From NCBI GenBank assembly GCA_031269465.1, contig JAISZB010000110.1, forward strand, positions 1 through 64,000: a stretch of 64,000 nucleotides of DNA. Reading direction: 5' to 3'. The stretch comes from Clostridiales bacterium (lineage in GTDB: Bacteria > Bacillota > Clostridia > Lachnospirales > WQUN01). Made by a program: the position numbers and the translations under genes. The notes under the pieces were generated by a model that saw only the letters and a program-made list of their open reading frames with translations, ran no database searches and had not been told where the DNA came from. Shown here piece after piece: positions 10,456-62,513 of the stretch; the first letter of the stretch is position 1, and every line of letters begins with the position of its first letter.

Positions 10456-11058
10456 GCTCCAAATAATTTTCATCCGCAAATCAACATAGATTTCAGGCGT
10501 CTCGATATTAGCGGCTCTAGGCGATGCTTTCTATGAAACCCTTTGCGGCTGCATTAGAACCACTATACGAAATTGCAAATTTCCCGCTCAATCTCCAGAG
10601 CTTCTGATAGGACAACTTTCATTATTATCCTATGTACAAGTTTCTGAAGTGGTTACAAAAAAAACTCCTAGTCAGCGAAATAGGAGCTTGTTTTTAGAAT
10701 TGTAATGCAATTGTAAGATTATATGGCTTATGAAGAGTGCGTCGCAAAGAGGAGCAAGGCAAATATACTGATTTTATTATAAAAATGCCTTTTAGCGTCT
10801 CAATGGATATCAAGCTCTAAAAAAGGAGCATTGCATTAAAATAGGCATAGCTAAAAACTACTATTTCCTAAGCGCAAATCTTCATGCAGTGACCAAGTCA
10901 AAGCTCCCTTAAGGCTTAGCGTACAACTTAAATTTTTTTTATATGAGATTTCTCAATTTTAAGCTTGGCCATGCAGCTGATGAGAGATGGCGATTTCTGC
11001 ATATCACGCCTTGAAAGTGAGCATTAAATCTCAAAAATAGGTGTATTTGCCTGTAATT
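10456..11058. other. Intergenic with two decayed palindromic copies and a terminator-like hairpin
   Basis: CTCCTA...TAGGAG followed by a T-run near 10670-10695 could end transcription in the plus direction. Degenerate palindromic copies lie at 10764-10849 (Gatttt type, internally shortened) and about 10930-11058. No gene is evident. Confidence 0.5.
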
Positions 11059-11164
11059 AATAAAATTTGGACTGGCCTTCTCTAAGGAAGAAATGCCGAC
11101 TAGAGAAGAAGCCCAGGAAGCTATTTGCAGCTACAGACTTTGGAGCTTGTGCAGATGGCTTTTG

Positions 11165-11432
11165 ATATGCTGATTTGCAACCGAACGTACCGATTTTGAG
11201 GTCGGATTATCTATACTGATTTTCATTGAAAATTACCTATTTTGGAGCTTTGATTATACAGCGAGATTGATATCTGCATTATCAGAGGATAATTAAGCTC
11301 CAAAACCGGTTCATTTGACTGCAGATCTGCATAGGTTGACAGTTAAGCGGGCGCGAATTGCAGATATCAATCGCCCCTTGAAAGTGGGCAGTCAAACTCC
11401 AAAACAGGTGCGCTTGACCGCAAATGGTTATG
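11165..11432. repeat. Nested palindromic elements
   Basis: An outer Gatttg-type copy with a GAGGTCGGATTAT left stem is interrupted at a TA by an inner Gatttt-type copy (11212-11333). The outer right half resumes with GATATCAATCGCCCCTTGAAA and ends CGCAAATGGTTA. Confidence 0.8.
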
Positions 11433-11639
11433 CTGATAAACTTTTATTATCCTCTATCTCCAGTGCCGATTCCGTTGCAATCAAGCTGCAGCCCGCACTT
11501 TCTTTGGGCGGCTTAAGAATGCAACGGCTTGCCTTGAATTGGCCTAAATAGAATATTCTGCATTCTGCGGAAAGACCATCGTAATGCGAAATTGACGCAC
11601 TCAAAGCTTGAAAATCCGCCATCATATGCTTGAACGGCG

Positions 11640-12150
11640 CCGGCTCGACCGAGGGCGGCCGTCCGGAGCTGAAGCCCCGGTTCAATGCGCCTGCAAGGCG
11701 GACTGCAAGAGGAGGCCGCGGAAATGGAGCGCCCGCTGGAGGATGCTGGCCATGGCGGGGATCTGAAGAACATACTTGGCGGGCGGCTCCCCATGCTTTT
11801 CGAAAAGCTTGGAGAGATTGAGGATCCGCGGAAGCATCCATCCCATAATATCAAGACAGTTCTGCCGCGCAGGAATATCATGCCGGTTTTATGCCTTTCC
11901 TCAAAGGGGAATGGCTGGCCGCCACTATTAAGGAGAAAGAGGTTTTCATAAGCTGCAAAGGGAAGATTCCGGGCTGCGAGACAGGCCGCCTTCCCGGCTG
12001 GGAAGGCGCCGGCAAGACGCTGGGCGCGCCTTGCCGGAGAAGCCAGGAGAAACGCCCGCGGACGCCCGTCTGAGGCCGGCGGGCCTGAATGACGAAAAAA
12101 ATCAAGGAGCGTGCGGAAATTGCGTTCAAAACCTTATGGCGCTGCATATT
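11640..12150 (+). pseudogene. Decayed transposase-like relic, GC-rich
   Basis: GC-rich remnant with broken frames. One segment reads LFEKLGEIEDPRKHPSHNIK, like the Asp-Pro-Arg motif preceding the catalytic part of several DDE transposases. Another reads GKIPGCETGRLPGWEGAGK. Both have diverged counterparts in the same order at 55100-55560 (LEDVCHDVNLNSL; GKIPSCKAGRLPGWKCVGK), so the two loci descend from one mobile element. The reading frame is not continuous and I see no intact catalytic triad. GC-rich sequence without a recognisable gene continues to about 12540. Confidence 0.4.
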
Positions 12151-12672
12151 TCAATTCAAGCCGCGCGCGCATCGGAGCCCATGATCCTGCCATTGCGCGC
12201 CGCGGCGGCGAAGGGAATCCGCGCTCGGCCTTCAGCGCAGCCTGGCGCTGGAGGCTAAGCTGGCGGCTGCGATAAAACAGCCGTTTACCTGGGGCCGGCA
12301 TTCGCCGAAAGCAAGAAGCCCGGCATCAGAGCCGGAAGACGCAAATGCATCCCGCGCATAGATCCGGCAAGAATCCTAAAGCCATGAAGGCGCAGCGCCA
12401 TTCGGTTCAAATGGCGCGCAGCTCGCAACGCAAAGAATAAAGCTTTAAATGCATGAACTTCCGATTTTAGGCCTCGGTTCCCAAGGGAAAGTTGCGCCCA
12501 CGACCGCCGGCAAAGCCGGCGGGCATGCCGCAAGTGGCTTGCTGGATCCGAATAGCTGCCTTGAATTGATATATCTCAAGATCAATCTTGCGCTCTGCCC
12601 AGTGCTCCCGCATCTATAGATATATCCATTTATCCTAAAGGATTCGGCACTGCTCTATCACCCTGCATAATC

Positions 12673-12808
12673 TATACTGGCTTTCATTGAAAATTACCTT
12701 TTTTGGAGCTTGATTATACAGCTAGTGCAAAATGCCGATACAGGGCACTTCATACCGACCAATTGATAATCAAGCTCCAAAAAGGTATATTTGATGAAAA
12801 TCGGCATA
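12673..12808. repeat. Palindromic element in front of the radical SAM operon
   Basis: Gatttt-type copy with intact TTTTGGAGCTTGATTATAC and TGATAATCAAGCTCC arms. It ends 51 nt before the first start codon of the operon at 12860, so it lies in the leader or the promoter. Confidence 0.85.
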
Positions 12809-12859
12809 TCTCAAAAATCAGAGCCTTCCCAGCGCATCAGTAAAGAATGGGGTGAAAAG

Positions 12860-14137
12860 ATGATTGATGTAAATGCCCTGTACGGTTATCCGTCATGGGA
12901 ATATTCAGGATTTACCCATATGCTTTTGCCATGCGATGGGCTAATAGCGAAGTTTAGGCCAAATTTGAACTCAGGTTTGGCATATTCAGCCCTTTTTGAG
13001 CGCGGACTCATCAAGCGCTTTCGTTTTCACGCCAATGACGCCCCCTTGAGGGACGGCTTTGCATTGTACATGACGTCCAGATGCAACTGCCAGTGTGAAT
13101 ATTGTGAATCCGAACACATTTCGCCTGTCCGGGATATGGGGCTGGAGACCCTGAACGCCGCATTTGAGTTCTGCGCCTGGACAGCGCGAAGGCTGGGTGG
13201 AAGGAAGCTTTCAATTACGCTTCTTGGCGGGGAGCCCACAATCATGGCGGATGCCATCGCAGGGCTGATGGAAAGGCTGCGGCTTGCAAACGTGGATGCG
13301 ATTGCCAGCCTTTGCACGAACGGAATGCTCTCGGAAGAAAATCTCCGCAGGCTTCTTCTATATGACAATATAGAGTGGCGGATTTCTCTGGATGTTCCAG
13401 GCAAGGAGCATTCCTGTTTGGACTATCGCAGGGGGATAGATTATTTTCAGGTTTATAAGGCTATTAAAGCAGTTGTAAAACATAAACGCCCGCACCAGAT
13501 ACGTACAACCGTTACTGACAGGAATTTGTCTTTGATGGAAGCGATTGCGAGTGAATGCGAGGCTCTTGGAGCAAGGAAGATAACGTTCACTCCCATGCGA
13601 TATGCCTATGGAAGGTCTCTGAACATGCCAAACGCAGTTGTCGATCCAGAAGAATATGCAAAGGCTTGGTTCAGTTGCAGGCGAAAATTCAACAGCGTAT
13701 CGGACACCCACTTCGACATGCTGTTCGGGAAGACAACCGCGTATTGCTCCAGCGTGTTCATCATGCCTGACGGCACGATACTTCCGACAATTTCAGAGTC
13801 GTATAAAGACAAGCGCTTTCATATTGGAAATGTGCTCGAAAGGGATTGGACTGCGCTTGAAGAGAAGCTGAACAGCCATAGGAAGCAATTCCTGAATCAA
13901 GTTGAGGAGAACTGCAAAGACTGCGTGGGGCGTCACATTTGCAGCGGCGGTTCCATGGCGCCCCAGCTCCATATGGGAAGGCGAGGGCAAAGCGGAACTT
14001 GCCTGCATCTGCGAGCCATGGCAGCACTGGCAGCAGAAAGGATAAATGAACTTCTTCCTGATTATGGACGTGCCGTGGAGTCCTTGCCGGAAGGCATTGA
14101 GCTTATAGACTACCGCAGCTTGAAAAGCAGAGTATGA
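12860..14137 (+). CDS. Radical SAM/SPASM protein 1
   Basis: A 425-residue radical SAM enzyme. The [4Fe-4S]-SAM motif is C75-x3-C79-x2-C82 (TSRCNCQCEYCESE), followed by the LLGGEPT SAM-binding loop. The C-terminal quarter has a SPASM-like Cys set, NCKDCVGRHICSGGS and a later GTC, expected to bind auxiliary clusters. Residues 1-65 form an extra N-terminal segment shared in style with the second radical SAM protein of the operon. Start at ATG 12860, 5 nt after GGGGTG; the longer frame from 12791 would begin inside the palindromic repeat. It is first in a seven-gene operon. SPASM proteins usually modify peptides, so the acidic Pro/Trp-containing protein next door is a candidate substrate, but nothing in the sequence proves it. 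Confidence 0.85.
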   Translation: MIDVNALYGYPSWEYSGFTHMLLPCDGLIAKFRPNLNSGLAYSALFERGLIKRFRFHANDAPLRDGFALYMTSRCNCQCEYCESEHISPVRDMGLETLNAAFEFCAWTARRLGGRKLSITLLGGEPTIMADAIAGLMERLRLANVDAIASLCTNGMLSEENLRRLLLYDNIEWRISLDVPGKEHSCLDYRRGIDYFQVYKAIKAVVKHKRPHQIRTTVTDRNLSLMEAIASECEALGARKITFTPMRYAYGRSLNMPNAVVDPEEYAKAWFSCRRKFNSVSDTHFDMLFGKTTAYCSSVFIMPDGTILPTISESYKDKRFHIGNVLERDWTALEEKLNSHRKQFLNQVEENCKDCVGRHICSGGSMAPQLHMGRRGQSGTCLHLRAMAALAAERINELLPDYGRAVESLPEGIELIDYRSLKSRV

Positions 14138-14147
14138 GGTGAATTAT

Positions 14148-14615
14148 ATGTCAGGTTCCATTTGGTCGGATGAAGATATTGAATCTTGGGACCCAAGTCC
14201 CCCGGCTCCACCGAAACCCCCGGATCTTTATGAAGGCAGCATGAGGCTTAAAATGAAATCTGATGAGATTGAACCCGCCCGGGACAGTTTCTCCGACAAG
14301 GCCGGCGCTTTAAAGCAAGAATTGATGAAGCTGCTGTCGATTGCCGCGGAGGCTGCGGACTTCAAAGATGGCGAAATTGCCGAGGCGGCTATCAGAATAT
14401 GCAGCGACGTGTTTGAACTCTCCCTCGACATATCCAACGAAACTGAAAGGGATATGCACGCGGTATGCGATCTGCTGGCAATAAGCCTTGCGGCTACGTG
14501 CGCGGAAAAATCGGACGAGCTTTTTTCCGGCAAGGAGATGGCAGGACGGGATATTGCCTACCTTTCAAAGGCGTTTGCTGCAGCAGGGTTGAAAGGCAAG
14601 AGGCAACGCTTATGA
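14148..14615 (+). CDS. Small acidic protein, Trp- and Pro-rich N-terminus; unknown
   Basis: A 155-residue protein. The first 30 residues are unusual: SIWSDEDIESWDPSPPAPPK, with two Trp, many acids and a Pro run, likely disordered. The rest is helical with regular Ala, Leu, Asp and Glu spacing. Start at ATG 14148 after GAGGTGA; an in-frame GTG at 14139 overlaps that site. It begins 11 nt after radical SAM 1 stops and overlaps the RtcB-like gene by 4 nt (ATGA), so its synthesis is coupled to both. It could be a partner, chaperone or substrate of the radical SAM enzymes. No family is recognised. Confidence 0.65.
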   Translation: MSGSIWSDEDIESWDPSPPAPPKPPDLYEGSMRLKMKSDEIEPARDSFSDKAGALKQELMKLLSIAAEAADFKDGEIAEAAIRICSDVFELSLDISNETERDMHAVCDLLAISLAATCAEKSDELFSGKEMAGRDIAYLSKAFAAAGLKGKRQRL

Positions 14616-15796
14616 GAACTATAGGCCCTGATCATATTTTCAATGCCGCGCACAGTTGGCGCGAATTAAGCGTAGCTGAGCGAATAAAGCGCCTGCCTGG
14701 CGTATCGCGGGACATTGTGCTGTCGCCGGAGAGCAAGTATGATAAAAACGGAGATCTGACGGGCATCATGTTCCGATCGGAAGGAGATGGCGCAATTGCG
14801 TATCCTGGGCTTGTTCCGGACAATGGATGCGGATTTTGCCTGGCGCTGATAAAAGGCGTTCGGCATGGAGGCATAGATTGGAATGGATTCGCCGAATCCC
14901 TGATTCTCGCGGCTGGCGTTTATAGCGTAGACAGAAGAAATTCAACGCCAGATGATCTTTTTGGAGCGATGGTTTTAGGACTCCCGAACCTGGAAAATCA
15001 CTTTTTCTTTAACTTGGCCGAACAAGCCGAAAAATCTGATTTTTATAAATCACTGGTTATGGACGAAGCAATGCCTATTTTGCTGAAGCAGCCTTTTGGA
15101 TGCTTTCTGGGGCATTTTCTTGAAATACGAAAGCCAGAATCCGGCGGAATGTTCCGAGATGACGAATACATTTTGATTATTCATGCAGGCTCGCAAGGAA
15201 TCCATCGACTGCTTAACAATCTGCTTCATGAGAGGCATCATTATCATTCCCGAGTATACGGAGCCCCGCTCTCCAACCAGGAGGGGCAGGATAGAAAGCT
15301 GTCAGCTCAAATGGCGATGAATTACTCAAGAGCCAGTCGGCTGCATTCGCTTAAAATTATATCGGAGCGCGTATATGATTATTTTGGAGCGGAGACTTTT
15401 TTCTTGTCTGACATATTTCACAGCTACATCCAGTACGAGGATGGCGGAATCCTGCATTGCCGCGGCGTGCAAAACGCGGATTGCCCGTATAATGACTCTG
15501 AGTTTCCTTACTGCCTGCTAGGCGGAACGCTATCGACCAGCTCATATATTCTTTCTCCAACAGTTGCATGCGCAAGCATATGCCATGGAACTCCTGAAGC
15601 ATTCTATTCCGATCCCATGTGTGAAAGATTCGATTCGCCGGATACGCTCGCTTGGAAAGACACATCGCCTCGAGGAGATCCGCGCCTTTTCGAATCTGTG
15701 ACAAGGGAATTGGCAAACTGGTTTGAAACTCAGGGATGCATGAAGATATGCGCAAGGCTTCTGCCTGTTTTTAACATGCAGCTGGCCGACAAATGA
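14612..15796 (+). CDS. Divergent RtcB-like RNA ligase homologue
   Basis: A 394-residue protein that I align to RtcB, the Mn/GTP-dependent ligase joining RNA 3'-phosphate (or 2',3'-cyclic phosphate) and 5'-OH ends. The metal and catalytic residues are present in order: D70 and C73 in VPDNGCGF, H168 in FLGHFLEI, H191 in IIHAGSQGI, H270 in IFHSYIQYE, and the guanylylated His as H325 in SICHGTPEA. These match E. coli D75, C78, H168, H185, H281 and H337. Also seen are NYSRASR for NYAxxNR and GGTLSTSSYIL for PGSMGTxSYV. Differences: the N-terminal PDVHxG motif is not recognisable, the Asn before H168 is missing, and HGAGR is changed to HGTPE. It may therefore act on another substrate. Translation is coupled to the previous gene by ATGA. 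No archease is in the window. Confidence 0.7.
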   Translation: MRTIGPDHIFNAAHSWRELSVAERIKRLPGVSRDIVLSPESKYDKNGDLTGIMFRSEGDGAIAYPGLVPDNGCGFCLALIKGVRHGGIDWNGFAESLILAAGVYSVDRRNSTPDDLFGAMVLGLPNLENHFFFNLAEQAEKSDFYKSLVMDEAMPILLKQPFGCFLGHFLEIRKPESGGMFRDDEYILIIHAGSQGIHRLLNNLLHERHHYHSRVYGAPLSNQEGQDRKLSAQMAMNYSRASRLHSLKIISERVYDYFGAETFFLSDIFHSYIQYEDGGILHCRGVQNADCPYNDSEFPYCLLGGTLSTSSYILSPTVACASICHGTPEAFYSDPMCERFDSPDTLAWKDTSPRGDPRLFESVTRELANWFETQGCMKICARLLPVFNMQLADK

Positions 15797-15808
15797 GGAG
15801 GCGCTGGC

Positions 15809-17083
15809 ATGAAGCATTATTTGCCGCCTGCCGCAAGGCTGGATGAGAAAAAAATGGCCGGGGTGCTGGATAAGGCAAAGAAAAAAGGAACGCTTGAAAA
15901 AGTTGCCCAGGAATCAATCAAGCTAATAATAGACAACCCCAATGCGCCCATTCTTGAAAGCGTCGTATTGGGCCAGCTTATAAAGCTCATTTCAGCCGAA
16001 GAGTTATTTGCGATGTTTATATCCATGGAAGATGAGAATTTTTCTTCGTATAATGATTATAGCAGAATAGACGGATGGGTAAACGCGGCGCTTGCGTTCT
16101 CCCGCTTTCCTTCAGTGCATAAGAAAGCGGTTTCTGCAGGCAATGCCATGCTTGCGAACATGGCGGTAAAACTTTTCATGGAGATGACAGAGGTCAATGC
16201 TGAAAACTGGAGACGCAACCAGGAAAGATCACGGGAGATAAGAAAATGCGCTGAAATGATCCAGAAAACTGACGTCATCGAAGCCGGGCTTTTTTATCTG
16301 CCAGCTTCTTTATCGGAAAGGCTTGAGAGGTTTATTGACTCCTATTATGACTTCTCTGTTAGAGACGATATGGCCTTTTTCGCCCGCATATTCACTAGCC
16401 GGGACGCTTTGGAAGCGTGCGTGGAGAACTGGAGCGATTATGAGATATCCCGAACAGGCAAGGAATCTCTTAATTACATCTCATTGACTGAAGCTTCAAT
16501 GATGCCGGTTTCTGAAGATTTAGCCGGACTGTTGGAAAAGGATGGGCGCATCGCCATAAAATGCGCTGTTCTTAAAAGGCTTCAGGGTAACATGCGAGAT
16601 TCTTACGTGGATCCGGTTTATGGTCTTTTATCTGACAGGGAGCCGATTATCGCCGTCAGCGCTCTGACGCTGCTATGTGAATGCTGGGAAGCCTACAGGA
16701 TTTCAAGCGTTGCGTCGGAGCTGCTTGGAATGCGTAGCGAACCGTTTGTTGTTCTGTATGTTCTCAGGCTTTTATTTTTGCTTCGAAATACTTGGATTTC
16801 ATCTTCAGTAGAAAATGACATCGCTGCTTTCTTAGAACAAAAATCTCTTCACGAAAACTCCGTTTGGGTAATGCGCTCCGCAGCCGCTAGGCTTTTGGGC
16901 ATTTGCGGAAAAAGGGAAGAACTTCTGGAATTGCTTTATAGCGATCGCAACTATGATGTACGCGCAGCCGCATTTTCAGGCCTGGGTGGAATTGAGACGA
17001 AAAACATCAAAAAACCCAAGCACCTGGCGACTGACATCAATGCCCTTGAAGCGCTTAAAATGGAGTGGAATATAGATGGATGA
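15809..17083 (+). CDS. HEAT-like helical repeat protein
   Basis: A 424-residue all-helical protein. The second half carries HEAT-like repeats (about 250-400), for example RIAIKCAVLKRLQ, PIIAVSALTLLCECW and NYDVRAAAFSGLGG, typical of protein- or nucleic-acid-binding solenoids. The N-terminal half is helical without a named motif. Start at ATG 15809, 6-7 nt after GAGGAGGCG. It starts 12 nt after the RtcB-like gene, and radical SAM 2 begins inside its last codons (8-nt overlap). A scaffold joining the ligase-like and radical SAM proteins would fit. No signal peptide, so it is cytoplasmic. Confidence 0.7.
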   Translation: MKHYLPPAARLDEKKMAGVLDKAKKKGTLEKVAQESIKLIIDNPNAPILESVVLGQLIKLISAEELFAMFISMEDENFSSYNDYSRIDGWVNAALAFSRFPSVHKKAVSAGNAMLANMAVKLFMEMTEVNAENWRRNQERSREIRKCAEMIQKTDVIEAGLFYLPASLSERLERFIDSYYDFSVRDDMAFFARIFTSRDALEACVENWSDYEISRTGKESLNYISLTEASMMPVSEDLAGLLEKDGRIAIKCAVLKRLQGNMRDSYVDPVYGLLSDREPIIAVSALTLLCECWEAYRISSVASELLGMRSEPFVVLYVLRLLFLLRNTWISSSVENDIAAFLEQKSLHENSVWVMRSAAARLLGICGKREELLELLYSDRNYDVRAAAFSGLGGIETKNIKKPKHLATDINALEALKMEWNIDG

Positions 17084-18425
17084 GCGTGAAAAGCTTTTAA
17101 ATATTGCAGGCTATCCTGTTCTGACTAAAAATATATGTGGCGGTATAGCTGTTTTGGCTTTCATTCACGAATCTGGATTATTTAGAACTCTCGTTTTGGA
17201 TCAATCAAAGAGCGTTCATAATGAGTTGATCAAGAAATGGGGATTTCATGCGCCTAATCGCATACCATCATTTATGCCTCCATTTCGCTCTGCAGCCTTG
17301 ACGATAACGAGCCGCTGCAATATGGACTGCCCGTACTGCTTTGTATATCCGATCCCTCGCAAATTGGACATAAGCGAATCCTTCGCTAAAACTGCCGTAA
17401 AAGCTCTTGCGGAGCATATGACAAAGGGCCGGAGACAGATTTATCTATGGGGCGGTGAACCTACGCAAAATCCCAAAGGGCTGTTTTCCGCCCTGAATGC
17501 CGTTTCGCATGATGAATGCGCGGTGACGCTTACGACCAATGGATGTGCGGAGGATGAAATGCTAATCAGGCTGGCGAGATACGATTTCCTGGAATTTCAA
17601 ATTTCCTTCGATGGCGTTGCTCAAGACAGGCAAAAGCGGATCGCTGGAGGCTCCTACAACAGGGTTATGCATAGCGTCCATTTGCTTAATGCCGCGGGAA
17701 AGCGGCCTATTTTAAGAATAACCGTTACAACGGAGAATATAGGAAACTTGCGGGATATGTTCAAGCGAATCATAGAAATGAATTTAACGGATCGCATATG
17801 CATAGAGCCCGTGCATGCATATGCAGGGCGTTCCCGCTTGCAGCAGCCATCCCAGCCCGACCCCAATCACTATGTTGAGGAGCTTTTCCACTGCATACGA
17901 TATGCCGAGCAGCACGGCCGCGCAGTCTATTCCCAGCCGCTGCGCCCGCTGACATCCAGCAAAGCGTACGACTGGGGATTCATCAACATCCTGCCGGATG
18001 GAAACGCTGTATCTACTGTATCCATAATCGACTCGTCCCATCCGGACGCAGGCGTCTTCCAGTGCGGTCGCATTGTGGATGGAAAGCTTGAGATTTCTGA
18101 AAATGCCGCCAGGCAAAGCAGCGCGTTCATCGGCGCCGTCGCGAGAAAATGCGTGATGTGCCCGGTATTTAGCATCTGCAAGGGAAATGAGCAGCGTGAT
18201 TATTTTGCGTCCGGCACCCCTGCGGCAGAATACAGATGCGAGGTATTTCGCGCAATCATGAAGACTTGGATGAGCTGCATGATGGAGAAAGCCCTGCCGA
18301 TGATGCTCAGAGCGGGAGGCGAATCCAGCTTCACCCTTAAGCGCAAGGCCGGCGAACAGGCAGTCATTTTGAATGTTTCTTTGCAAGAGGAGGGGGCATA
18401 TGCCAAGATCAAAAACGGTGGATGA
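17076..18425 (+). CDS. Radical SAM/SPASM protein 2
   Basis: A 449-residue radical SAM enzyme with C81-x3-C85-x2-C88 in TSRCNMDCPYCFVYP, the WGGEPTQNP loop, and LTTNG and QISFDGV strands. A SPASM-like C-terminal cluster region follows (CVMCPVFSICKGNEQ, later EYRC). It is a distant paralogue of radical SAM 1 with the same 70-80 residue N-terminal extension. Start at ATG 17076, after TGGAGTGGA and overlapping the HEAT-like gene by 8 nt. Two such enzymes in one operon suggest sequential modifications or a heteromeric complex. Substrate unknown. Confidence 0.85.
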   Translation: MDEREKLLNIAGYPVLTKNICGGIAVLAFIHESGLFRTLVLDQSKSVHNELIKKWGFHAPNRIPSFMPPFRSAALTITSRCNMDCPYCFVYPIPRKLDISESFAKTAVKALAEHMTKGRRQIYLWGGEPTQNPKGLFSALNAVSHDECAVTLTTNGCAEDEMLIRLARYDFLEFQISFDGVAQDRQKRIAGGSYNRVMHSVHLLNAAGKRPILRITVTTENIGNLRDMFKRIIEMNLTDRICIEPVHAYAGRSRLQQPSQPDPNHYVEELFHCIRYAEQHGRAVYSQPLRPLTSSKAYDWGFINILPDGNAVSTVSIIDSSHPDAGVFQCGRIVDGKLEISENAARQSSAFIGAVARKCVMCPVFSICKGNEQRDYFASGTPAAEYRCEVFRAIMKTWMSCMMEKALPMMLRAGGESSFTLKRKAGEQAVILNVSLQEEGAYAKIKNGG

Positions 18426-19347
18426 TATGGCGTCCATGCTAAAGCCAAACGCTGAAAGCTTTCATGATCCCGGAGCGGAAGCCTCTTTGAAATTCCACTG
18501 GAATGGCATGGGTTTTCGAAGCATGGATGAATTGGCGTCATGGACGCTTTCGATCATTGAGGCTTCGTTTTATGATTTGGAAAGAGAAAAGGCGCGTAAA
18601 GTCTCTTTATGGAATCCTAATTGCAATATCAAGCGCGCAAGGTGGAGAAGGCGCCTGGAAGAAATGCTTGAGAAAAAAGCGCTTTCCTCTTACCTTGAAA
18701 GCATCAGGGGCGACAAGGGCATGATGCTGGAGGTTCAGTCAATTGAAGCCCAATATATGAAAAACAATGGCTCAGACCAATTTTGGGCTGCTATATTTTG
18801 GAAGCTTGCATATGCCATAGGAAGTGATATAAAAGGCTTTTTTTGGATGAACAGGACATTTTCCGATTTAGAGGAGTTTGGGAGGGACATGAAGCTTAAA
18901 CTTGCACAGCGAGAAAATAAGAGCGCGTTCGAAATCCCATTTGGCTACGCGGATATGCTGCGGCTTGGCATCCTCTCTAAATACTTGAGCTATATAGATG
19001 CCGATGCCGAAACTATGGAAACTATTAAAAGCTTTGAGGACGAGCTCTTAATAGTGGAAAAAGGAAAAGTGGATTTTGATTTTGAACTCGCTTTGAATAG
19101 GCTCGCATTTATGCTATCTGATGATGCGTTCTTTTTTGACGGCAAGTTTTTCCTTAGATTAGAGGAATTGATTGCCTATCTGGAAAAAGCATTGAAAAAA
19201 TCCCTTGACAGCTTTAGAAACTTGGTAGAAAGGCTTATAAGCTTGGAAATCGGCAAGCCGTCCCCATCTTTTGCCGTATGGATGGAAGCGCTTGGCAAGA
19301 AGGAGCAGCTGGAATCGCTGTCCAGCAAATTCCTTATTTTAAAATAG
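18400..19347 (+). CDS. Unknown protein of the radical SAM operon
   Basis: A 315-residue soluble, helical, Lys/Glu-rich protein with no recognised domain. A central stretch has several Trp and Phe (FWAAIFWKLAYAIG; GFFWMNRTF), and the C-terminal third (about 230-300) looks like long amphipathic helices. Start at ATG 18400, after AGGAGGGGG at 18388-18396, so the gene overlaps radical SAM 2 by 26 nt; a longer frame from 18373 lacks a site. The strong site and overlap show it belongs to the operon. Confidence 0.65.
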   Translation: MPRSKTVDDMASMLKPNAESFHDPGAEASLKFHWNGMGFRSMDELASWTLSIIEASFYDLEREKARKVSLWNPNCNIKRARWRRRLEEMLEKKALSSYLESIRGDKGMMLEVQSIEAQYMKNNGSDQFWAAIFWKLAYAIGSDIKGFFWMNRTFSDLEEFGRDMKLKLAQRENKSAFEIPFGYADMLRLGILSKYLSYIDADAETMETIKSFEDELLIVEKGKVDFDFELALNRLAFMLSDDAFFFDGKFFLRLEELIAYLEKALKKSLDSFRNLVERLISLEIGKPSPSFAVWMEALGKKEQLESLSSKFLILK

Positions 19348-19366
19348 GGGCTGGGAGGCGGTTTTA

Positions 19367-20206
19367 TTGAAGCATAAAAGACATGCGGGAAAGAACGCGA
19401 TATTTTGGATCCTTGCGCTGTGCATGGTTGTAAATCTCGCCCTCCTTCTGTGCCTGTCGGAATGCGCGCTTCGCGTTTCTAAGCTCGCAGCGCCACTAAG
19501 CGCGGCGTCTGAGAAAGAGATGCTCTACATGATGGGTTCAGTTGTATTGGGGAGCTTCGCGGCTTGCGGATATGCGCTTGTTTATTTTTCAGTTTCTCTT
19601 GCGGTAGGGGAGCGCATCTGCGGGCTATGCAATTGGAATGCGGAGTTTGTTTTTGAGCTGGTTGTACTGGGCATTCCAACATTTTTGCTGTTTGCCGGCT
19701 TCTTTTTTTTCCAAGCTCTTCCTGAGGGAGGCATTGCGTCAGCATTCAAACTGATATATTCCTGCAAGGATCCATTTGCTCTTGCTGAAGCCGCGCTTTT
19801 AATATCTTTTCCATTCATGGCTCTCGTGAAGCTTTGCGTTATGAATATATATTTGGATCGCAGGAAAAAGGACAAAGTGAAGGCAAGCCAGTATCGGCAT
19901 ATGAATGGATTTGTCAAAATCATGGTTCACCTCGCTCCGGGAAGAGAGTCCCGAAGCCTAAGCCATGCGCTAAGGCGCAATCGGGAGAACGCCAGCATGA
20001 GAGAATTTTATCTGAACGATAAATATCCTTCCAGGCATGCCGTTATATTTATAATCATAGAGGCGCTTCTGCTTTTTGCGTTTTGGGAGTTCAGCATCAG
20101 AGAAGGAAAAATAGAATCGGCTATAAAGGCTGGCAATTTCCTTCATATAGAAAAGTCCTATTATGAAATGAAAGAAGAAAAACACCCTGTCAGAGAAGCT
20201 GATTAA
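19367..20206 (+). CDS. Polytopic membrane protein closing the radical SAM operon
   Basis: A 279-residue protein with about five hydrophobic segments (roughly 12-33, 52-80, 92-116, 138-160 and 225-243) and a basic cytoplasmic loop between the last two (DRRKKDKVKASQYR). It starts at TTG 19367, 8 nt after GGGAGGCGG, and lies 19 nt behind the previous gene. It has no transporter signature I recognise. It could anchor the complex or export a product. Family unknown. Confidence 0.65.
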   Translation: MKHKRHAGKNAIFWILALCMVVNLALLLCLSECALRVSKLAAPLSAASEKEMLYMMGSVVLGSFAACGYALVYFSVSLAVGERICGLCNWNAEFVFELVVLGIPTFLLFAGFFFFQALPEGGIASAFKLIYSCKDPFALAEAALLISFPFMALVKLCVMNIYLDRRKKDKVKASQYRHMNGFVKIMVHLAPGRESRSLSHALRRNRENASMREFYLNDKYPSRHAVIFIIIEALLLFAFWEFSIREGKIESAIKAGNFLHIEKSYYEMKEEKHPVREAD

Positions 20207-21012
20207 GCCATTGCTTGCTTTGCCAAAGCAGCGCGCTATGCTGATCTGCATCCTTAATATGTGCATTTGGCTTCAAATGGGCATGCATTGATGCTCTTTG
20301 GCTATCGAAGCGTCCAAGCAATGGCGGGATGCGGCCTGTTCCCGCGACGATTTCCGCAGGCGCCGGAAAATGCCGCTTCGCCTTCGAAAATGCAAACTGC
20401 ATCGCCCCTGGGCTGCATTCAGCGATCCATGCATGAATGCGGCTCCTCGCGCGGCTTCTCCATCATGGCCGTTAAGGAGGAAGCGCGGCCGAATTAAACG
20501 TCCTGCCGTCGGCGGCTTTTTCTGGGAAATCGCGGCAAAAGAGCCCCATAGATTTTCTCGCTTGCTTTTATAAGCCCGCAGACAAGGCTCGCGTCAATTC
20601 ATCTATTGCCATTTCGATATTTCCGGGCTGAAACGATATCGCGTTACCATGCTCAAATATGTTCAGTTCGCGCAGCAGAAACTCTTTTTTGAGGTAAGAG
20701 TCGGGATTATTTGACTTTATTCTTTTTATACCTCGCTTTCTTCACTCTCCTTCGGCAGGAGGATTTTAGCCGCCAGAAGAATGCGCCACCCAACGCGGCG
20801 GGTTATATATACTGATTTTCATAGAAATTCGGCTTGCTTGCGCGCATAGAAAAGTCCTTATTTTGGAATTCAAAAATCTGCTTATTTGATGGCTGATTGG
20901 CGCAAGATACTGATTTGCATTCAAACGCAACTGCTTCGGAGCTGATTATCCGCTGATACTCGGTAAAGTCAAGCTTGAAATAGGGATTTACCAGTCAGCG
21001 GGGCAGTCGTGA
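20207..21012. other. Intergenic with GC-rich relic and decayed palindromic pieces
   Basis: No credible gene. GC-rich, Arg-coding frames at 20297-20573 have no start site or family. Decayed palindromic pieces lie from about 20805 to 20990. Confidence 0.45.
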
Positions 21013-21040
21013 GGCCTGGCTGCCGCATGGCAGCCAGGCC
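21013..21040. terminator. Hairpin downstream of the ferritin-like gene
   Basis: Perfect 12-bp stem GGCCTGGCTGCC, 4-nt loop, GGCAGCCAGGCC, located 7 nt past the stop codon of the minus-strand gene at 21047. No long T-run follows, so it may be a processing or stability hairpin instead. Confidence 0.6.
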
Positions 21041-21046
21041 CCATAA

Positions 21047-31038: not shown

Positions 31039-31335
31039 TATACCGCTTTGCAGTCAAATGTACCGATTTCATCAAATGTTCCTTTTTTTGTTGATTATCA
31101 ATTGATGGTGCGAAATGCCGATATACCGCTTTTCATCAAATGTTCCTTTTTTTGTTGATTATCCATTGAATGGTGCGAAATGCCGAAATCGGCATTTTGC
31201 ACTCGCTGTATTATCAAGCTCCCAAAAAGGTAATTTTATATGAAAAGCAGTATATCAATCGCGCTCGCTGTATAATCAAGCTCCAAAAAAAGTAATTTTC
31301 TATGAAAATCAGCATATCTAATGCAAAGCAGTATA
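31039..31335. repeat. Three palindromic elements nested in one another
   Basis: The outer Gctttg copy (31039-31335) contains a middle copy (about 31059-31316), which contains an inner copy (31124-31252). The inner copy is flanked by TA on both sides (31122-31123 and 31253-31254). Removing it with one TA restores the exact family centre GCCGATATCAATCGC, so it inserted there with TA duplication. Confidence 0.95.
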
Positions 31336-38329: not shown

Positions 38330-39268
38330 ATGTATATCAGGACAGGCGAAAACACGGCAAAAATCAAGATATTTCATAAAAACGGCTGGATATGGCTGCC
38401 TATTGATTTTAGAGCGCAAGACGTAAAATATATACAAAAATATTTATCGTTATGTAAAGAATTAGCGCCGGCGCTAAAGCAAACAGGCAAACAATGGCAT
38501 CTCGCAGTTCCTTTCGAGAAAAAGATTGCGTTTGAGGACAAGCCCGTTAATGAAAGAGCCGTATGCGCCGTGGACTTAGGGCTTAACAACAATGCCGTAT
38601 GCTCCACCGTTTTATCAAACGGAACTGTCGCCGCGAGAAAATTTATAAATCTTGCGGCGGAAAAAGACCATTTAGATAAGGCGATTGGAAGAGTGAAAAA
38701 AGCGCAGCAGCACGGAGCAATCAAAACGCCCATATTGTGGAGGCATGCAAATGGCCTTGGTAAAGGCATAAGCATAAAAACGGCGAGAGCCATTGCAGAT
38801 TTTGGGTCATCGGCAGGCGCTGATGCTATTGCATTTGAGTTTTTAGATGTTTCGGGCAAAATAAAAGGCTCGAAAAAACAAAAGCTTCACATGTGGCGAA
38901 GGAAAGGGATACAACAAATAACGGAGCATAAAGCCCATAAAAGCGGCATGCGAATAAGCCGAATTTGCGCTTGGAATACGTCTAAATTAGCTTGCGGCGG
39001 AAGCGGGGCCGTCTCGCGCGGAACATACAAGCAGAACGGAAAAGAAAAATGCAGCTATTCTATTTGCGTGTTCCAAAGTGGAAAAACCTATAATTGCGAC
39101 CTAAACGCAAGCTATAATATCGGAGCAAGATATTTTACAAGGGAAATTCTAAAATCCGAACCAGCAATGGCAAGGTTGCCGAACGAAGCAAAAGTCCTTC
39201 GTTTTGGTACGGGAACAACACGTACCCTATCTACGTTAATTAGGCTTAATGCGGACTTGTGTGCGTAA
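38330..39268 (+). CDS. TnpB-family RNA-guided nuclease, N-terminally truncated
   Basis: A 312-residue TnpB (usual length near 370-400). The RuvC-like triad is kept: D82 in CAVDLGLNNN, E170 in DAIAFEFLDVSGK and D257 in TYNCDLNASYNIG. The usual CxxC...CxxC zinc finger is replaced by SKLACGGSGAVSRG and CSYSICVFQSGKTYNC, as in a clostridial subgroup that has lost it. The first 80-100 residues of a normal TnpB are missing because the frame starts 31 nt from the tnpA start without a ribosome binding site. Likely inactive or a relic. Confidence 0.8.
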   Translation: MYIRTGENTAKIKIFHKNGWIWLPIDFRAQDVKYIQKYLSLCKELAPALKQTGKQWHLAVPFEKKIAFEDKPVNERAVCAVDLGLNNNAVCSTVLSNGTVAARKFINLAAEKDHLDKAIGRVKKAQQHGAIKTPILWRHANGLGKGISIKTARAIADFGSSAGADAIAFEFLDVSGKIKGSKKQKLHMWRRKGIQQITEHKAHKSGMRISRICAWNTSKLACGGSGAVSRGTYKQNGKEKCSYSICVFQSGKTYNCDLNASYNIGARYFTREILKSEPAMARLPNEAKVLRFGTGTTRTLSTLIRLNADLCA

Positions 39269-56736: not shown

Positions 56737-58071
56737 ATGCCTGATTTTATAGAACGGGCGAAGTTTTCATGCGCGTTGGGAGGCGCGCTTTCAACGGTTG
56801 CCGGGATTGCGCGAGTAGTTCCAATAGTTCATGCGGCAGGCGGATGCGCAGGCTCTCTTTCCGGGGCGTACAACCTGGCGGCAGGTTATCGAGGCGTGGG
56901 TTATTGCGGCGGAAATATGATACCTACAAGCAACATTGCCGAAAATAATATTGTGTTCGGCGGAGAAGAACGTTTGGAAGAGCAGATTGAACATACTGTA
57001 AAGGCCTTTAACGGCGATTTGTACATCGTGCTCACCGGATGCCAGGTAGAGATAATCGGAGATGACGCTGTAGGAGTAGCCAGGCGCTTCAAGGATGAAA
57101 ATGTAATAGGCGCCAGTACGCCTGGGTTTTTGGGAAATGCGCTTAAAGGGTATGACGCGGTAATGGAAGCTCTTATTGAGAGCTTCATTGAGCCTTCGCC
57201 GGTGCACGATACCTTGTCTGTAAACATCCTAGGCGTCGTTCCAGGCCAAGATGTCTTTTACCACGGAAATCTCGATGAGATAAAGCGCCTGCTGGGGCTT
57301 ATCGGCGTTAGCGCGAATACTTTCTTCAGCACGGGAGAAAGCGTATCTGCAATTCGCGGATACGGAAGAGCAGCTCTTAACATTGTGCTCTCTACGCAGG
57401 CTGGGTTGGGTCCTGCCGAGAAATTCAAGTCTGTGCATGGCATCCCGTACATAGTCTCAGAGCTTCCGATAGGGCCTGCAGGAACTGAGGCGTTTCTTCG
57501 CCAAGTCGCGGAAGAGCTTGGAATCAGCGCGGCTTTAGCAGAAGAGGCGTTTCGGGCTGAAAAAGCTTACTACTATTCGTTTCTCGAGCGCATCGTAGAC
57601 ATATATTCAGACATCGATTTTCAAAGATATGCAGTTGTAGTTGCTGACAGCTATTACGCGCACGCTCTTACGAGGTTTTTGGCGAATGATCTAGGATGGA
57701 TTCCCCATCTCACGGCTATAAACGACATTGAGGATGAAGCTGAGCAAGCTGAGTATTTAAAGAAATTTGACGACATATCCTCGAAAACAAAGCCAAAGGT
57801 TATTTTCCAGCGCCACGCTGGGCTTTTGCTCGGAGAGGTGCGAAACAGCTGGCAGTTGAACCGCAACAGCAGATATTATGACTCATTCTCCCCTGCGTAT
57901 GTTATAGGCAGCGGCATTGAACGAAGCCTTGCCGATAAGCTTGGAGCGGGATTCCTCAGCGTAGCTTATCCTGTGAGCAACCGCGCAGTCCTCAACAAGG
58001 GGTATGCGGGTTGCAGAGGCGCGCTTTCTCTTATTGAAGATCTGATAACAAACCTTGTAGCTGCGCGTTAA
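56737..58071 (+). CDS. Nitrogenase component-1-like protein (NifK/NifN-like half)
   Basis: A 444-residue protein of the nitrogenase alpha/beta superfamily. Three Cys sit where P-cluster ligands of NifK lie: C12 in KFSCALGG, C37 in HAAGGCAGS (25 residues apart, as NifK C70/C95) and C102 in VLTGCQVE. The three-domain Rossmann-like pattern follows (NILGVVPGQDVFY, YIVSELPIGPAGTEAFL, YAVVVADSYYAHAL). It is the smaller partner of the protein at 58356. Start at ATG 56737 with AAGGAG 10 nt upstream. In nitrogenase-like enzymes (NifEN, methylthio-alkane reductase, chlorophyllide reductase) such pairs reduce diverse substrates. No NifH-like reductase is in the window. Confidence 0.8.
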   Translation: MPDFIERAKFSCALGGALSTVAGIARVVPIVHAAGGCAGSLSGAYNLAAGYRGVGYCGGNMIPTSNIAENNIVFGGEERLEEQIEHTVKAFNGDLYIVLTGCQVEIIGDDAVGVARRFKDENVIGASTPGFLGNALKGYDAVMEALIESFIEPSPVHDTLSVNILGVVPGQDVFYHGNLDEIKRLLGLIGVSANTFFSTGESVSAIRGYGRAALNIVLSTQAGLGPAEKFKSVHGIPYIVSELPIGPAGTEAFLRQVAEELGISAALAEEAFRAEKAYYYSFLERIVDIYSDIDFQRYAVVVADSYYAHALTRFLANDLGWIPHLTAINDIEDEAEQAEYLKKFDDISSKTKPKVIFQRHAGLLLGEVRNSWQLNRNSRYYDSFSPAYVIGSGIERSLADKLGAGFLSVAYPVSNRAVLNKGYAGCRGALSLIEDLITNLVAAR

Positions 58072-58073
58072 CA

Positions 58074-58299
58074 ATACTGCTTTTCATATAAACCCCTATG
58101 ACGCTGCGCTTCACCGCCAAGGGTGAAAATATTAAGTCATTTGTGTATTTGAGGCATGGACAGATATCCATAAAATGTATTTTCGTACTAAACTGCCTTT
58201 TTTGGAGCTTGATTATACAGCGAGTGCGATTGATATCGGCATTTCGCATCGCTCAATGGATAATCAAGCTCCAAAAAGGATTTGATGAAAAGCGGTATA
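58074..58299. repeat. Composite palindromic element between the two nitrogenase-like genes
   Basis: Left end TACTGCTTTTCATATAAA, second module (CCCCTATGACGCTGC, ATGGACAGATATCCAT palindrome, TTTTCGTACTAAACTG), then a normal centre and right end ATGAAAAGCGGTATA. It starts 3 nt after the stop codon and lies inside what should be one operon. Confidence 0.9.
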
Positions 58300-58355
58300 A
58301 TAGATGAGCTTGAAAAGCTACAAAATGCAATCGCGTTTTGAAAGGGGTTTCTTAA

Positions 58356-59888
58356 ATGTCTAAATATTCCGATGAACTGACTTACGGTTTTGCCAAAGCG
58401 GCGGCGCCCCCGGTGCGCGAGACCCGCATTGGCGTTTGCGCCGCATTTTGCGGTACTTGCGGCAAGCTGAACGAGAATGTGAAAAGCGGCTGCGCTCAGC
58501 TTCAAAGCCGCAAATTTTCTCAGAGCGGAGGTTGCCAGCTGATGCTCGCCATGGGGATTCTAAGCAGCCTCACAAACATTGTGGTAATTATTCATTCTCC
58601 GCTGGGATGCTGCTCCGGCTTCGGGGGTATAGCCGGCTTGCTTAAGACGATGAGGGCCTCCAAGGGAAAGAAGGAACAGGAATTTGTCTGGATTCACACG
58701 AATATGGATCAGCTGGATGTAGTGAACGGCGGCACTGAAAAACTCCGCAATGCCATATTGCATGCGGAGAAGCACTGCCATCCGGAAGCGATCATCATTG
58801 CCAACGGTTGCGTCCCGGGCATAATAGGAGACGACATTGACTCGCTGGCTTCTGAACTTGAGCATCAGCTTTCTGCAAAGCTTGTTCCCGTTCATTGCGA
58901 GGGATTCAAGAGCCGCTATGTGGCTTCAGGATACGACTCGGCGTATCACGGCGTTCTACGCCATTTGATTGAGCCGATTAAGAAGCAAGATCTCATATTT
59001 CCCGATGAAGGGCTTGACGCGTTGGAACGCTGGCAGAAAAGCCGCACAGTCAATATCTTCAATGTCGGCTCAAATTCGAATGGAGATGAGGTTGAGCTTT
59101 CCCGACTGGTATCGGCTCTCGGACTTATTCCGCGCTTTCTGCCGCTTCACGCGAGCATTGAGGATTTGGAGAGAATCAGCGAGGCGGCGCTAAATGTCAG
59201 CGTTTGCGCCACGCATGACGATTATTTGCTTGGACATTTAAAAGAGCGGTTTGGCACGCCGTATATTATAGACACGCTTCCGATAGGCATAAAGAACACA
59301 AATAAATGGCTGAGGCGGATTGCGGAGTATTTCCATCTCGAAGATGAAGCGGAGCGTCTGATTAGGCTTGAAAATGAGCAGCTTCTTGAAGCGCTTGAAC
59401 CTTTCAAGAGAGTTCTGGAAGGAAAGAGCGTGTTTGTCGGAGGAGGGGAGACGCGAATCCTTACAACTGCAGAGTTCTTCAATTCGCTAGGGATGAAGCT
59501 TCTCGGGGTGAAGGCTCACAATGTCGACAGGTTTGTAGAGGACATTCTTGAAGAGACGGCAGGCCCGGAGCTTGCAATTGAGGTTGCGGCCGGCCAGCCC
59601 GCTGAGGAGCTCAATATACTGAATAAGTTGCGCCCGGATCTTTACTGCGGCCATATGGGGGCGAACGGTTGGGTTGCCCGGCTGGGAATTCCCAATTTAC
59701 CTCTTTTTGGACAGTCGCTCAATTACATGGGCTACTCCGGAGCGTTCGAACTGGCGCGCAAAGCGGTGAAAGTTCTGAAAAACACGAATTTTGTCCAAAA
59801 CATCTCCGCCAATGCGCAGCTTCCGCTTCGCAAAGAGTGGTTCGATTCTGACGTTAGAGAAAATATAAAAGAGACCGAATCAGCGTAA
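58356..59888 (+). CDS. Nitrogenase component-1-like protein (NifD-like half)
   Basis: A 510-residue NifD-superfamily subunit. Ligand positions follow A. vinelandii NifD closely: C60 in SQSGGCQLM, C85 in SPLGCCSGF and C152 in ANGCVPGIIGDD (NifD C62, C88, C154). C284 in LNVSVCATHDDYL fits the cofactor ligand C275. The region of the second cofactor ligand, NifD MHSWDYSGP, reads QSLNYMGYSGAF, with Asn where H442 would be. An extra N-terminal Cys set (C28, C32, C35, C46) precedes the domain and may bind another cluster. So it resembles a catalytic subunit, not simply NifE. Start at ATG 58356 after AAAGGGG. CysK, NifX-like and DUF4418 genes follow directly. Confidence 0.8.
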   Translation: MSKYSDELTYGFAKAAAPPVRETRIGVCAAFCGTCGKLNENVKSGCAQLQSRKFSQSGGCQLMLAMGILSSLTNIVVIIHSPLGCCSGFGGIAGLLKTMRASKGKKEQEFVWIHTNMDQLDVVNGGTEKLRNAILHAEKHCHPEAIIIANGCVPGIIGDDIDSLASELEHQLSAKLVPVHCEGFKSRYVASGYDSAYHGVLRHLIEPIKKQDLIFPDEGLDALERWQKSRTVNIFNVGSNSNGDEVELSRLVSALGLIPRFLPLHASIEDLERISEAALNVSVCATHDDYLLGHLKERFGTPYIIDTLPIGIKNTNKWLRRIAEYFHLEDEAERLIRLENEQLLEALEPFKRVLEGKSVFVGGGETRILTTAEFFNSLGMKLLGVKAHNVDRFVEDILEETAGPELAIEVAAGQPAEELNILNKLRPDLYCGHMGANGWVARLGIPNLPLFGQSLNYMGYSGAFELARKAVKVLKNTNFVQNISANAQLPLRKEWFDSDVRENIKETESA

Positions 59889-59912
59889 GCGCAAAACAAG
59901 GAGTTGCTTGCC

Positions 59913-60881
59913 ATGAGCAATATCATTGCGAACAATTTGACGGAGCTGATAGGCAATACGCCGGTGCTCCGCCCACGCAAGTTTTCGAAGCTGGCAGGGC
60001 TTTCGGATTCGGAGCTGCTACTAAAGCTGGAATACTTCAATCCCCTCGGCAGCGTAAAGGACAGGATTGCCTACGCCATGATTGCGGATGCTGAGGAAAG
60101 AGGGCTTCTCACGCCGGATTCGGTTATCATCGAGCCGTCCAGCGGAAATACCGGCGTTGGCTTGGCATTTGTAGCGGCGGCCAAGGGATATAGAATTGTA
60201 ATTGTCATGCCTGACACTATGACCCATGAGCGGCGGGATCTCGTCTGCGCGCTTGGCGCCGAGCTGGTTCTCACCCCTGGCGCTCAAGGCATGAAGGGGG
60301 CGATACGAAAAGCTGAAGAGCTTCAGGCGCAACTTGCCGATGGAATAATCCTACAGCAGTTCAATAACCCCGCAAATCCGCGCATACATAGGGCGACGAC
60401 TGGGCCTGAAATATGGGAGGCGACGGAGGGCAGAATAGATATCCTTGTCGGAGGGGTTGGCACTGGCGGCACAATAACCGGCGCCGGATTATTTTTAAAA
60501 GAGAAAAAGCCTTCTGTGCAGGTTGTCGCCGTGGAGCCGTCCGCCTCTCCTGTTCTTTCAGGCGGGAATCCTTCTCCGCACAAGATACAAGGCATAGGGG
60601 CGGGTTTCATCCCGCAGGTTTTGGATTTGTCGCTTATTGATGACATCTATGCGGTACTGGATGAAGAGGCGGCAGACACGGCTCGCGTGCTTGCCAGAGA
60701 GGAAGGCCTGCTTGTCGGCATATCCTCGGGCGCCGCCGCGTTTGCAGCGGCGCGTTTGGCTCGTCGGCCGGAAAACTGCGGCAAGGTCATACTCGCGATT
60801 CTTCCGGATACAGGAGAGCGCTACTTGTCCTACGATTTGTTTAAGCAGCCGCGCAATGAAAAAAGCCGATTTTGGTATTGA
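59913..60881 (+). CDS. cysK: Cysteine synthase (O-acetylserine sulfhydrylase)
   Basis: A 322-residue PLP enzyme that makes cysteine from O-acetylserine and sulfide. The PLP Lys is K49 in [11 protein letters not shown]. The SSGNTG substrate loop and the [13 protein letters not shown] phosphate loop are present, as is GISSGAA near the end. Start at ATG 59913 with AAGGAG 9 nt upstream; an in-frame TTG at 59904 is less likely. It lies 24 nt after the NifD-like gene, so the sulfide used may come from the reductase next door. Confidence 0.9.
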
Positions 60882-60885
60882 TGCC

Positions 60886-61257
60886 ATGAAATACAGGCTA
60901 GCGGTGGGAACTACCGACGGAATAAACGTAAATGAGCATTTCGGGCGGGGCAAAAGCTTTTTCATTTATGAAATACAGCAGGAGACCGGGGAGTCGACTC
61001 TGATTGAACGGCTCGCCTTCGAGCACGGAGGTGATGACTGCGGGCAGCATAGCTTTGAGTCTATAGCGGAAAAGCTTTTTGCATTTAGAAATTGCCAAAT
61101 AGTGGTTGCAGCCAGAATCGGAGGCAAGTCAGAAAAACAGCTGACGTTGAGTCGCATCGTTCCCTTGCAATTTGAGGGCGAACTCGAGACTGCTTTGCAG
61201 AAGATCAAGAAGGCCTACAAACACAGAATATTTGAAAGCGGAGGAGATTTGCAATGA
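60886..61257 (+). CDS. NifX/NifB-C-terminal-like Fe-Mo cofactor-binding protein
   Basis: A 123-residue protein of the dinitrogenase iron-molybdenum cofactor family (NifX, NafY, NifB C-terminus). RLAVGTTDGINVNEHFGRGK with the conserved His, then FFIYEI and IVVAARIGGKSEKQL, follow the family pattern. The start is uncertain: ATG 60886 lies 4 nt after cysK, while ATG 60856 overlaps it; neither has a strong site. The ATGA overlap with the next gene couples translation. It would carry or deliver the cofactor of the nitrogenase-like pair. Confidence 0.8.
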   Translation: MKYRLAVGTTDGINVNEHFGRGKSFFIYEIQQETGESTLIERLAFEHGGDDCGQHSFESIAEKLFAFRNCQIVVAARIGGKSEKQLTLSRIVPLQFEGELETALQKIKKAYKHRIFESGGDLQ

Positions 61258-62385: not shown

Positions 62386-62513
62386 TATACTGACTTTCAT
62401 AGGAAATTACCCTTTTTAGCTTGATTATACAGCGAGTGCGAAATGCCGAATCGGCATTTCGCACCACTCAATGGATAATCAAGCTAAAAAGGAACATTGA
62501 ATGAAATCGGTAT
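62386..62513. repeat. Palindromic element
   Basis: Gacttt-type ends, arms TTTTTAGCTTGATTATAC and GGATAATCAAGCTAAAAA (shortened on both sides), perfectly palindromic centre GCGAAATGCCGAATCGGCAT. Confidence 0.9.

Follow-up and report, generated by a model that had tools for sequence, protein, structure and literature searches.

Here, we describe a seven-gene operon (genes A to G) of a Clostridiales bacterium in which a highly diverged protein of predicted RtcB fold, protein C, is encoded between two paralogous radical S-adenosylmethionine (SAM) enzymes, proteins A and E. The operon lies at positions 12860-20206 of the 64,000-nucleotide stretch of DNA that was analyzed (the window; assembly GCA_031269465.1, contig JAISZB010000110.1, positions 1 to 64,000 of the forward strand). 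The strongest single result is that C, placed between these sister enzymes, has selectively retained the catalytic center of RtcB while the rest of the protein has been rebuilt. We tentatively favor, with clearly less than even confidence, a reading in which the operon is a lineage-restricted accessory module of the conflict type that couples radical and GTP-dependent chemistry on a nonstandard acceptor.

The operon is an intact unit of the single-transcript type and is accessory in the lineage of the source strain. By the list of open reading frames (ORFs), its seven genes are intact, lie on the + strand and overlap or nearly abut (Table 1). Genes B and C overlap in an ATGA at 14612-14615, D and E by 8 nt (17076-17083), and E and F by 26 nt (18400-18425), i.e., three of the six junctions are overlaps, of 4, 8 and 26 nt. 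The codon-usage score is positive for the annotated frame of all seven genes and strongly negative for the other five frames. The scores of 0.04-0.13, compared with 0.18-0.27 for flanking household genes, are as might be expected for acquired or weakly expressed genes. Purine-rich stretches resembling ribosome-binding sites precede most starts and are clear for D, F and G. The first-pass annotation of this DNA had reported a seven-gene operon, which is confirmed by the intact, coding frames, and its gene positions and three junctions match the ORF coordinates exactly. The overlaps and the position of A and E, as full-length paralogues on either side of C and D, also argue against an adventitious cluster, i.e., accessory genes that are unrelated, have no common function and happen to lie on one transcript. 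Such a cluster would fit the occurrence of the operon in one genome only and in a variable region rich in dispersed repeats; we consider it very unlikely.

The RtcB-like protein C

The established role of RtcB-type ligases is to seal or repair RNA. Three observations identify C as a genuine but remote homologue of these proteins, the assignment of its fold being qualified by the quality of the structural model. First, C matches the Pfam family RtcB (PF01139) with an E-value of 6.6e-5 and 22.7 bits, which is under the gathering cut-off of 27 and leaves C outside the family by curated score. Second, a structural model computed from C together with seven RtcBs from viral contigs was compared with the PDB by Foldseek. 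Each of the first nine matches is an RtcB (E-values 5e-11 to 9e-10, probability 1.00), and the next match has an E-value of 0.15; confidence in the model is low (mean predicted local distance difference test [pLDDT] 51, predicted template modeling score [pTM] 0.57), and RtcB sequences had been used to seed its alignment. Third, while C is only 21-25% identical to RtcBs and retains 17 of the 49 positions that are invariant in 12 canonical RtcBs, these 17 include all six residues for metal binding and GMP acceptance (hypergeometric p about 9e-4). Specifically, D70, C73, H168, H191, H270 and H325 of C correspond to D95, C98, H203, H234, H329 and H404 of Pyrococcus horikoshii RtcB, i.e., the six RtcB residues (Asp95, Cys98, His203, His234, His329 and His404) to which metal binding and guanylylation have been ascribed (PMC10630183, PMC10944509). 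Thus, C shares with RtcB the fold, as judged by fold comparison, and the entire metal/GMP center. By contrast, the Asn, HGAGR, HSGSR, RKGA and Lys signatures are gone. In the alignments, Asn202, which precedes a metal-binding His, is lost or replaced by Gly, and the C-terminal Lys480 is replaced by Gln; the Arg of HSGSR, the RK of RKGA and the AGR of HGAGR, all invariant in the 12 canonical homologues, are lost as well. An intact center within an altered remainder would be the pattern expected if the chemistry had been kept and the acceptor had changed. The description of C as an RtcB-like ligase in the first-pass annotation therefore holds for the homology, on the evidence of Pfam, Foldseek and the retained residues; that C acts as a ligase is more than these data show.

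The low identity of C to RtcBs and the loss of many otherwise invariant residues could also be explained if C were a pseudo-enzyme that senses GTP, Mn2+ or RNA ends, with A and E providing the only chemistry of the operon. However, drift does not favor retention of all six metal/GMP residues, and we regard a sensor function as quite improbable.

Alternatively, the operon could repair or modify RNA, as had been proposed at first pass. C would then be an RNA 3'-phosphate ligase that evolves fast and has changed its substrate, the radical SAM pair would modify or reopen the same damaged RNA, and D and F would serve as scaffolds. The homology of C to RtcB and its complete catalytic center are in line with this proposal, and there are two precedents: RtcB genes in sporadic counter-toxin operons accrete accessory genes, some of which encode helical scaffold proteins (PMC6514570), and RtcB2-PrfH repairs toxin-cut rRNA (PMC9223846). 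However, in addition to the signature residues that C has lost, the operon lacks a gene for a nuclease, RtcA, archease or PrfH and, among curated families and solved structures, A and E are closest to peptide maturases (PapB, CteB and sulfatase maturase) and not to RNA-modifying radical SAM enzymes. In contrast to the rtcBA, RtcB-archease, RtcB2-PrfH and Hen1-like/Pnkp/RtcB arrangements, gene C shares its operon with two radical SAM genes, and none of the partners known for RtcB accompanies it. Canonical RtcB genes are present elsewhere in the same genome. The proposal is weakened by these canonical RtcBs and by how little of the RtcB signature C has retained outside the metal center; we keep it as a rival explanation that we consider doubtful. 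One of the canonical RtcBs is encoded on another contig of the genome (C119; L037:2106-7208), in an apparent RNA-repair cluster of adjoining genes for a Hen1-like protein, Pnkp (kinase, phosphatase and ligase domains) and RtcB.

The radical SAM pair and proteins B, D, F and G

A (E-value 1.5e-9, 38.7 bits) and E (E-value 3.5e-19, 70 bits) both score above the Pfam Radical_SAM cut-off of 29.5 bits, and both contain CX3CX2C, GGEPT and a C-terminal CX2CX5C...C. The full seven-Cys SPASM set (auxiliary clusters AuxI and AuxII) is lacking, the AuxI cysteines being incomplete in A and absent at the PDG turn in E; the SPASM family PF13186 is below its cut-off in A and not listed for E. Of the earlier designation as two radical SAM/SPASM enzymes, the first half is thus borne out and the second holds in part, for one auxiliary Cys set. 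A and E are 30% identical over their length, and a joint profile scores them at 870 and 789 bits, whereas no other protein in 399 genomes of the phylum exceeds 64 bits. As judged from their sequences, they are a lineage-specific sister pair, each being the closest relative of the other in every search.

The nearest NCBIfam family of both proteins is PapB, with 76.6 bits for A and 71.2 bits for E, far under the equivalog cut-off of 340. Among solved structures, A is closest to CteB (PDB entry 5wgg) and sulfatase maturase, and E to SkfB. Accordingly, A and E share the CX3CX2C core and the C-terminal CX2CX5C...C with SPASM-type peptide maturases (PapB of ranthipeptides, CteB/SCIFF and anaerobic sulfatase maturase), which are their best curated matches, yet at ~25% identity and far under equivalog cut-offs. 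They also differ from these maturases in lacking the full AuxI cysteine set, and no Cys-rich precursor ORF was found in the region, so that PapB-type ranthipeptide membership is not supported.

These similarities bear on a pathway for a ribosomally synthesized and post-translationally modified peptide (RiPP), in which B or an unannotated small peptide would be the precursor, A and E would install cross-links, C would add GMP or activate a carboxylate or phosphate, and G would export the product. The nearness of A and E to the ranthipeptide maturase PapB and the PDB match of A to CteB agree with such a pathway, as does B, a small protein between A and C that has no relatives by family search. 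Moreover, the genome has a second radical-SAM peptide cluster on contig C36. However, beyond the low PapB scores, the region yielded no short, Cys-rich precursor gene preceded by a ribosome-binding site; B is 158 aa long and has only three Cys; the operon lacks a peptidase and an ATP-binding cassette (ABC) exporter; and a dedicated recognition element was not seen. Altogether, we consider a RiPP pathway unlikely. By inspection, the cluster on contig C36 (L034:9749-16859) is conserved in a genome of the same family (L039:3516-10026) and comprises genes for a SPASM-type enzyme, a short PqqD-like protein, a peptide rich in C-x-C/V-C repeats, another radical SAM protein and a protein resembling U32 peptidases.

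Among the remaining proteins, B has a Pro-rich N-terminus with WSDED/SWDPSPPAPPKPP and matches no family in Pfam, NCBIfam, PADLOC or PHROGs, its best Pfam match being the nonsignificant DUF768; it is a possible substrate or adaptor. D matches Pfam HEAT just over the cut-off (24.2 versus 23.5 bits), in agreement with its earlier description as HEAT-like, and is a putative scaffold. G has five hydrophobic segments by hydropathy and no Pfam family over the cut-off. F has no Pfam match, and a single-sequence model of it was too poor to use (pLDDT 35). Its residues 116-310 resemble, at 24-28% identity, repeats that bacterial Ser/Thr kinases carry in their C-terminal tails: tblastn against all plasmids gave an E-value of 3e-4, two kinases encoded on an Aristaeella lactis plasmid matched in three stretches, and a kinase of the same genome (contig C98) matched with E-values of 1.7e-15 and 4e-15. 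These helical tail repeats have no Pfam family at either locus. F differs from the kinases in lacking a kinase domain, and the operon differs from their loci in lacking a kinase, a phosphatase and a helicase.

The two loci, on contig C98 (L045) and on the Aristaeella lactis plasmid NZ_CP069422.1 (L040:15062-32924), are related and encode a large DUF4011-type helicase protein, called by inspection on contig C98, together with tailed Ser/Thr kinases. The plasmid locus adds genes for an AAA ATPase, PP2C, FHA and a 4Fe-4S activase, and the contig C98 locus adds tubulin-like and vWA genes. The plasmid helicase, the one of the two that was compared, matches the PADLOC candidate-defense family PDC-S37 with 1308 bits.

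Distribution and genomic setting

Cross-genome searches covered A, C, E and F, and D in the phylum set only. The congener gave no match to C or F and only generic radical SAM matches. No relative of C was found in 61 relatives, 392 genomes of the order, or plasmids. Two weak matches in the 399 genomes of the phylum were both canonical RtcBs, and one match in phages was also a canonical RtcB. Viral contigs were searched with C by itself, with C combined with canonical RtcBs, and with artificial alignments that were motif-steered; none of these queries gave a relative, and the combined query recovered only eight canonical RtcBs. Limited motif scans of contigs from 85,000 species, with C alone or with the catalytic motifs of C and the SAM-cluster motif of A, were likewise negative; because these scans need exact shared stretches of 8 residues, close relatives are excluded, whereas distant ones could have been missed. 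No orthologue of D was present in the phylum set, and the A/E pair has none in the genomes searched; A and E had no match in viral contigs and matched only generic radical SAM proteins in plasmids and phages. The neighborhoods of four of the best A/E-like matches elsewhere contained no second match to an operon protein. The radical SAM pairs of jumbo phages (Erwinia phage ChrisDB) seemed a good lead and were rejected, the stretch that was read containing no RtcB.

The first-pass annotation had looked to the same five to seven genes in unrelated species for support, and to a single lineage with decayed frames for refutation. No second gene set was found in the sets searched; the operon was seen in one genome only, but its frames are intact. 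Its statement that no described system combines these proteins agrees with the literature and libraries searched, in which the gene set has no counterpart. No paper joining radical SAM, RtcB and SPASM was found; the RNA-repair survey of Burroughs and Aravind (2016) lay outside this search, and a mention there is possible. Co-mentions of radical SAM and RtcB in five papers, judged by titles and amounting to one to two mentions, appear incidental.

On both sides of the operon, the contig continues with the gene order of the congener (tblastx and blastn), and the region is therefore no foreign contig joined in by an assembly error. The flanking genes are ~1 kb apart in contig C368 of the congener, with no recognized gene between them, versus ~10.4 kb here. 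This congener, the nearest relative with a sequenced genome, is the only one examined and is 76% complete; the operon may have been gained here or lost in the congener, both being compatible with a two-genome comparison. A palindromic repeat of ~137 bp that resembles a miniature inverted-repeat transposable element (MITE) occurs at 42 intergenic places in the window, in both orientations and about once per 1.5 kb (0.66 per kb). One copy of it is the inverted repeat ahead of gene A, which was rejected as an operon-specific hairpin. The repeat is also present on contigs C257, C346, C98 and C36 of the same genome, and is absent from the examined stretches of contigs C103 and C119 and from 35 kb of the syntenic contig of the congener. 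Its spread may contribute to the genome size of 7.7 Mb, compared with about 2-4 Mb elsewhere in the family. A decayed transposase suspected in the upstream part found no Pfam support. Elsewhere in the window, a TnpB/Cas12f-like gene (38330-39268) separates the genes for the permease and the solute-binding protein of an ABC transporter, and a gene run at 56737-61257 encodes two nitrogenase component 1-type proteins, a pyridoxal phosphate enzyme and an ORF with an iron-molybdenum (FeMo)-cofactor-type domain.

Table 1. Features of the operon and its surroundings, in window coordinates
Feature	Position	Strand	Description	Basis
Gene A	12860..14137	+	Radical SAM enzyme, 425 aa	Pfam, NCBIfam, motifs
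Gene B	14139..14615	+	158 aa, no family	ORF list, profile searches
Gene C	14612..15796	+	Highly diverged RtcB-fold protein (predicted), 394 aa	Pfam, Foldseek, alignments
Gene D	15809..17083	+	Helical protein with HEAT repeat, 424 aa	Pfam
Gene E	17076..18425	+	Second radical SAM enzyme, 449 aa	Pfam, motifs
Gene F	18400..19347	+	Helical protein, 315 aa	tblastn to kinase tails
Gene G	19367..20206	+	Polytopic membrane protein, 279 aa	Hydropathy
A, SAM-cluster motif	13082-13105	+	C75-X3-C79-X2-C82	Motif position
A, GGEPT motif	13226-13240	+		Motif position
A, auxiliary-cluster motif	13913-13942	+	C352-X2-C355-X5-C361, with C381	Motif position
E, SAM-cluster motif	17316-17339	+	C81/C85/C88	Motif position
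E, auxiliary motif	18150-18179	+	C359/C362/C368, with C388	Motif position
C, D70-N-G-C73-G	14819..14833	+	RtcB metal ligands Asp95, Cys98	Alignments
C, G-H168-F-L-E171	15110..15124	+	RtcB His203, Glu206; Asn202 position lost	Alignments
C, H191-A-G-S-Q-G	15182..15199	+	RtcB His234; Arg of HSGSR replaced by Gln	Alignments
C, F-H270-S-Y-I	15416..15430	+	RtcB His329 (HNY)	Alignments
C, C-H325-G-T-P-E	15581..15598	+	GMP-accepting His404; HGAGR replaced by HGTPE	Alignments
Accessory region	10643..21046		Approximate borders	tblastx and blastn versus congener contig C368 (G001)
Dispersed palindromic ~137-bp repeat, copy	12673..12808	+	Directly upstream of gene A	RNA fold z = -4.0
MITE-like repeat, example copies	343-476, 2293-2468, 12673-12808, 31059-31254, 62386-62513			Window

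A possible conflict-type function

A conflict-type or stress-type accessory role of the operon is most likely, over household RNA repair. In the reading that we favor, C would use GTP and a two-metal center to attach GMP covalently to His325 and would pass the GMP to, or join, an acceptor other than the standard RNA 3'-phosphate/5'-OH pair. A and E would modify a protein or peptide by means of SAM radicals, the target being B or a protein of the host or an invader. D and F would hold the enzymes together, and G would anchor the complex at the membrane. A more specific version, in which the RtcB-fold enzyme is no longer an RNA ligase and instead uses its histidine-GMP intermediate on the protein or peptide modified by the radical SAM pair within a new kind of accessory conflict-type system, strikes us as unlikely.

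A radical SAM protein in a bacterial conflict system has been predicted to modify a peptide effector (PMC7159879). This protein belongs to one subtype of the nucleoside triphosphate (NTP)-dependent conflict systems (Kaur et al., PMC7159879), which also share scaffold repeats with the operon. However, the operon lacks vWA, MoxR, STAND or any other NTPase, and no RtcB is mentioned in that paper. Thus, the operon shares themes with these conflict systems and with the accreted RtcB operons (PMC6514570), and has the defining features of neither. The idea of a stress or phage response gains one indirect point from the resemblance of F to kinase tails at candidate-defense loci.

Several points weigh against a conflict-type module. 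The operon occurs in one genome only, and co-function of its seven genes therefore rests on overlap and strand. No PADLOC defense family was matched, except for a weak, generic radical-SAM likeness of A and E to viperin models, and helical tails such as that of F are poor functional markers. The catalytic residues retained in C, as read from its sequence, fall short of proving activity, and the model of C is of the low confidence noted above and derives from an RtcB-seeded alignment. The proposed substrates, B or a target of the host or an invader, are candidates.

Altogether, these findings support the earlier suggestion of an unusual operon in which a radical SAM pair stands beside an RtcB homologue whose task may be new, a combination absent from the literature searched. 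In the libraries and papers searched, no described system couples an RtcB-like protein to two paralogous radical SAM enzymes. The operon is compact enough for expression as a whole in Escherichia coli. With its intact metal/GMP center and the loss of otherwise invariant residues, C provides a direct test of whether RtcB chemistry can turn to another substrate.

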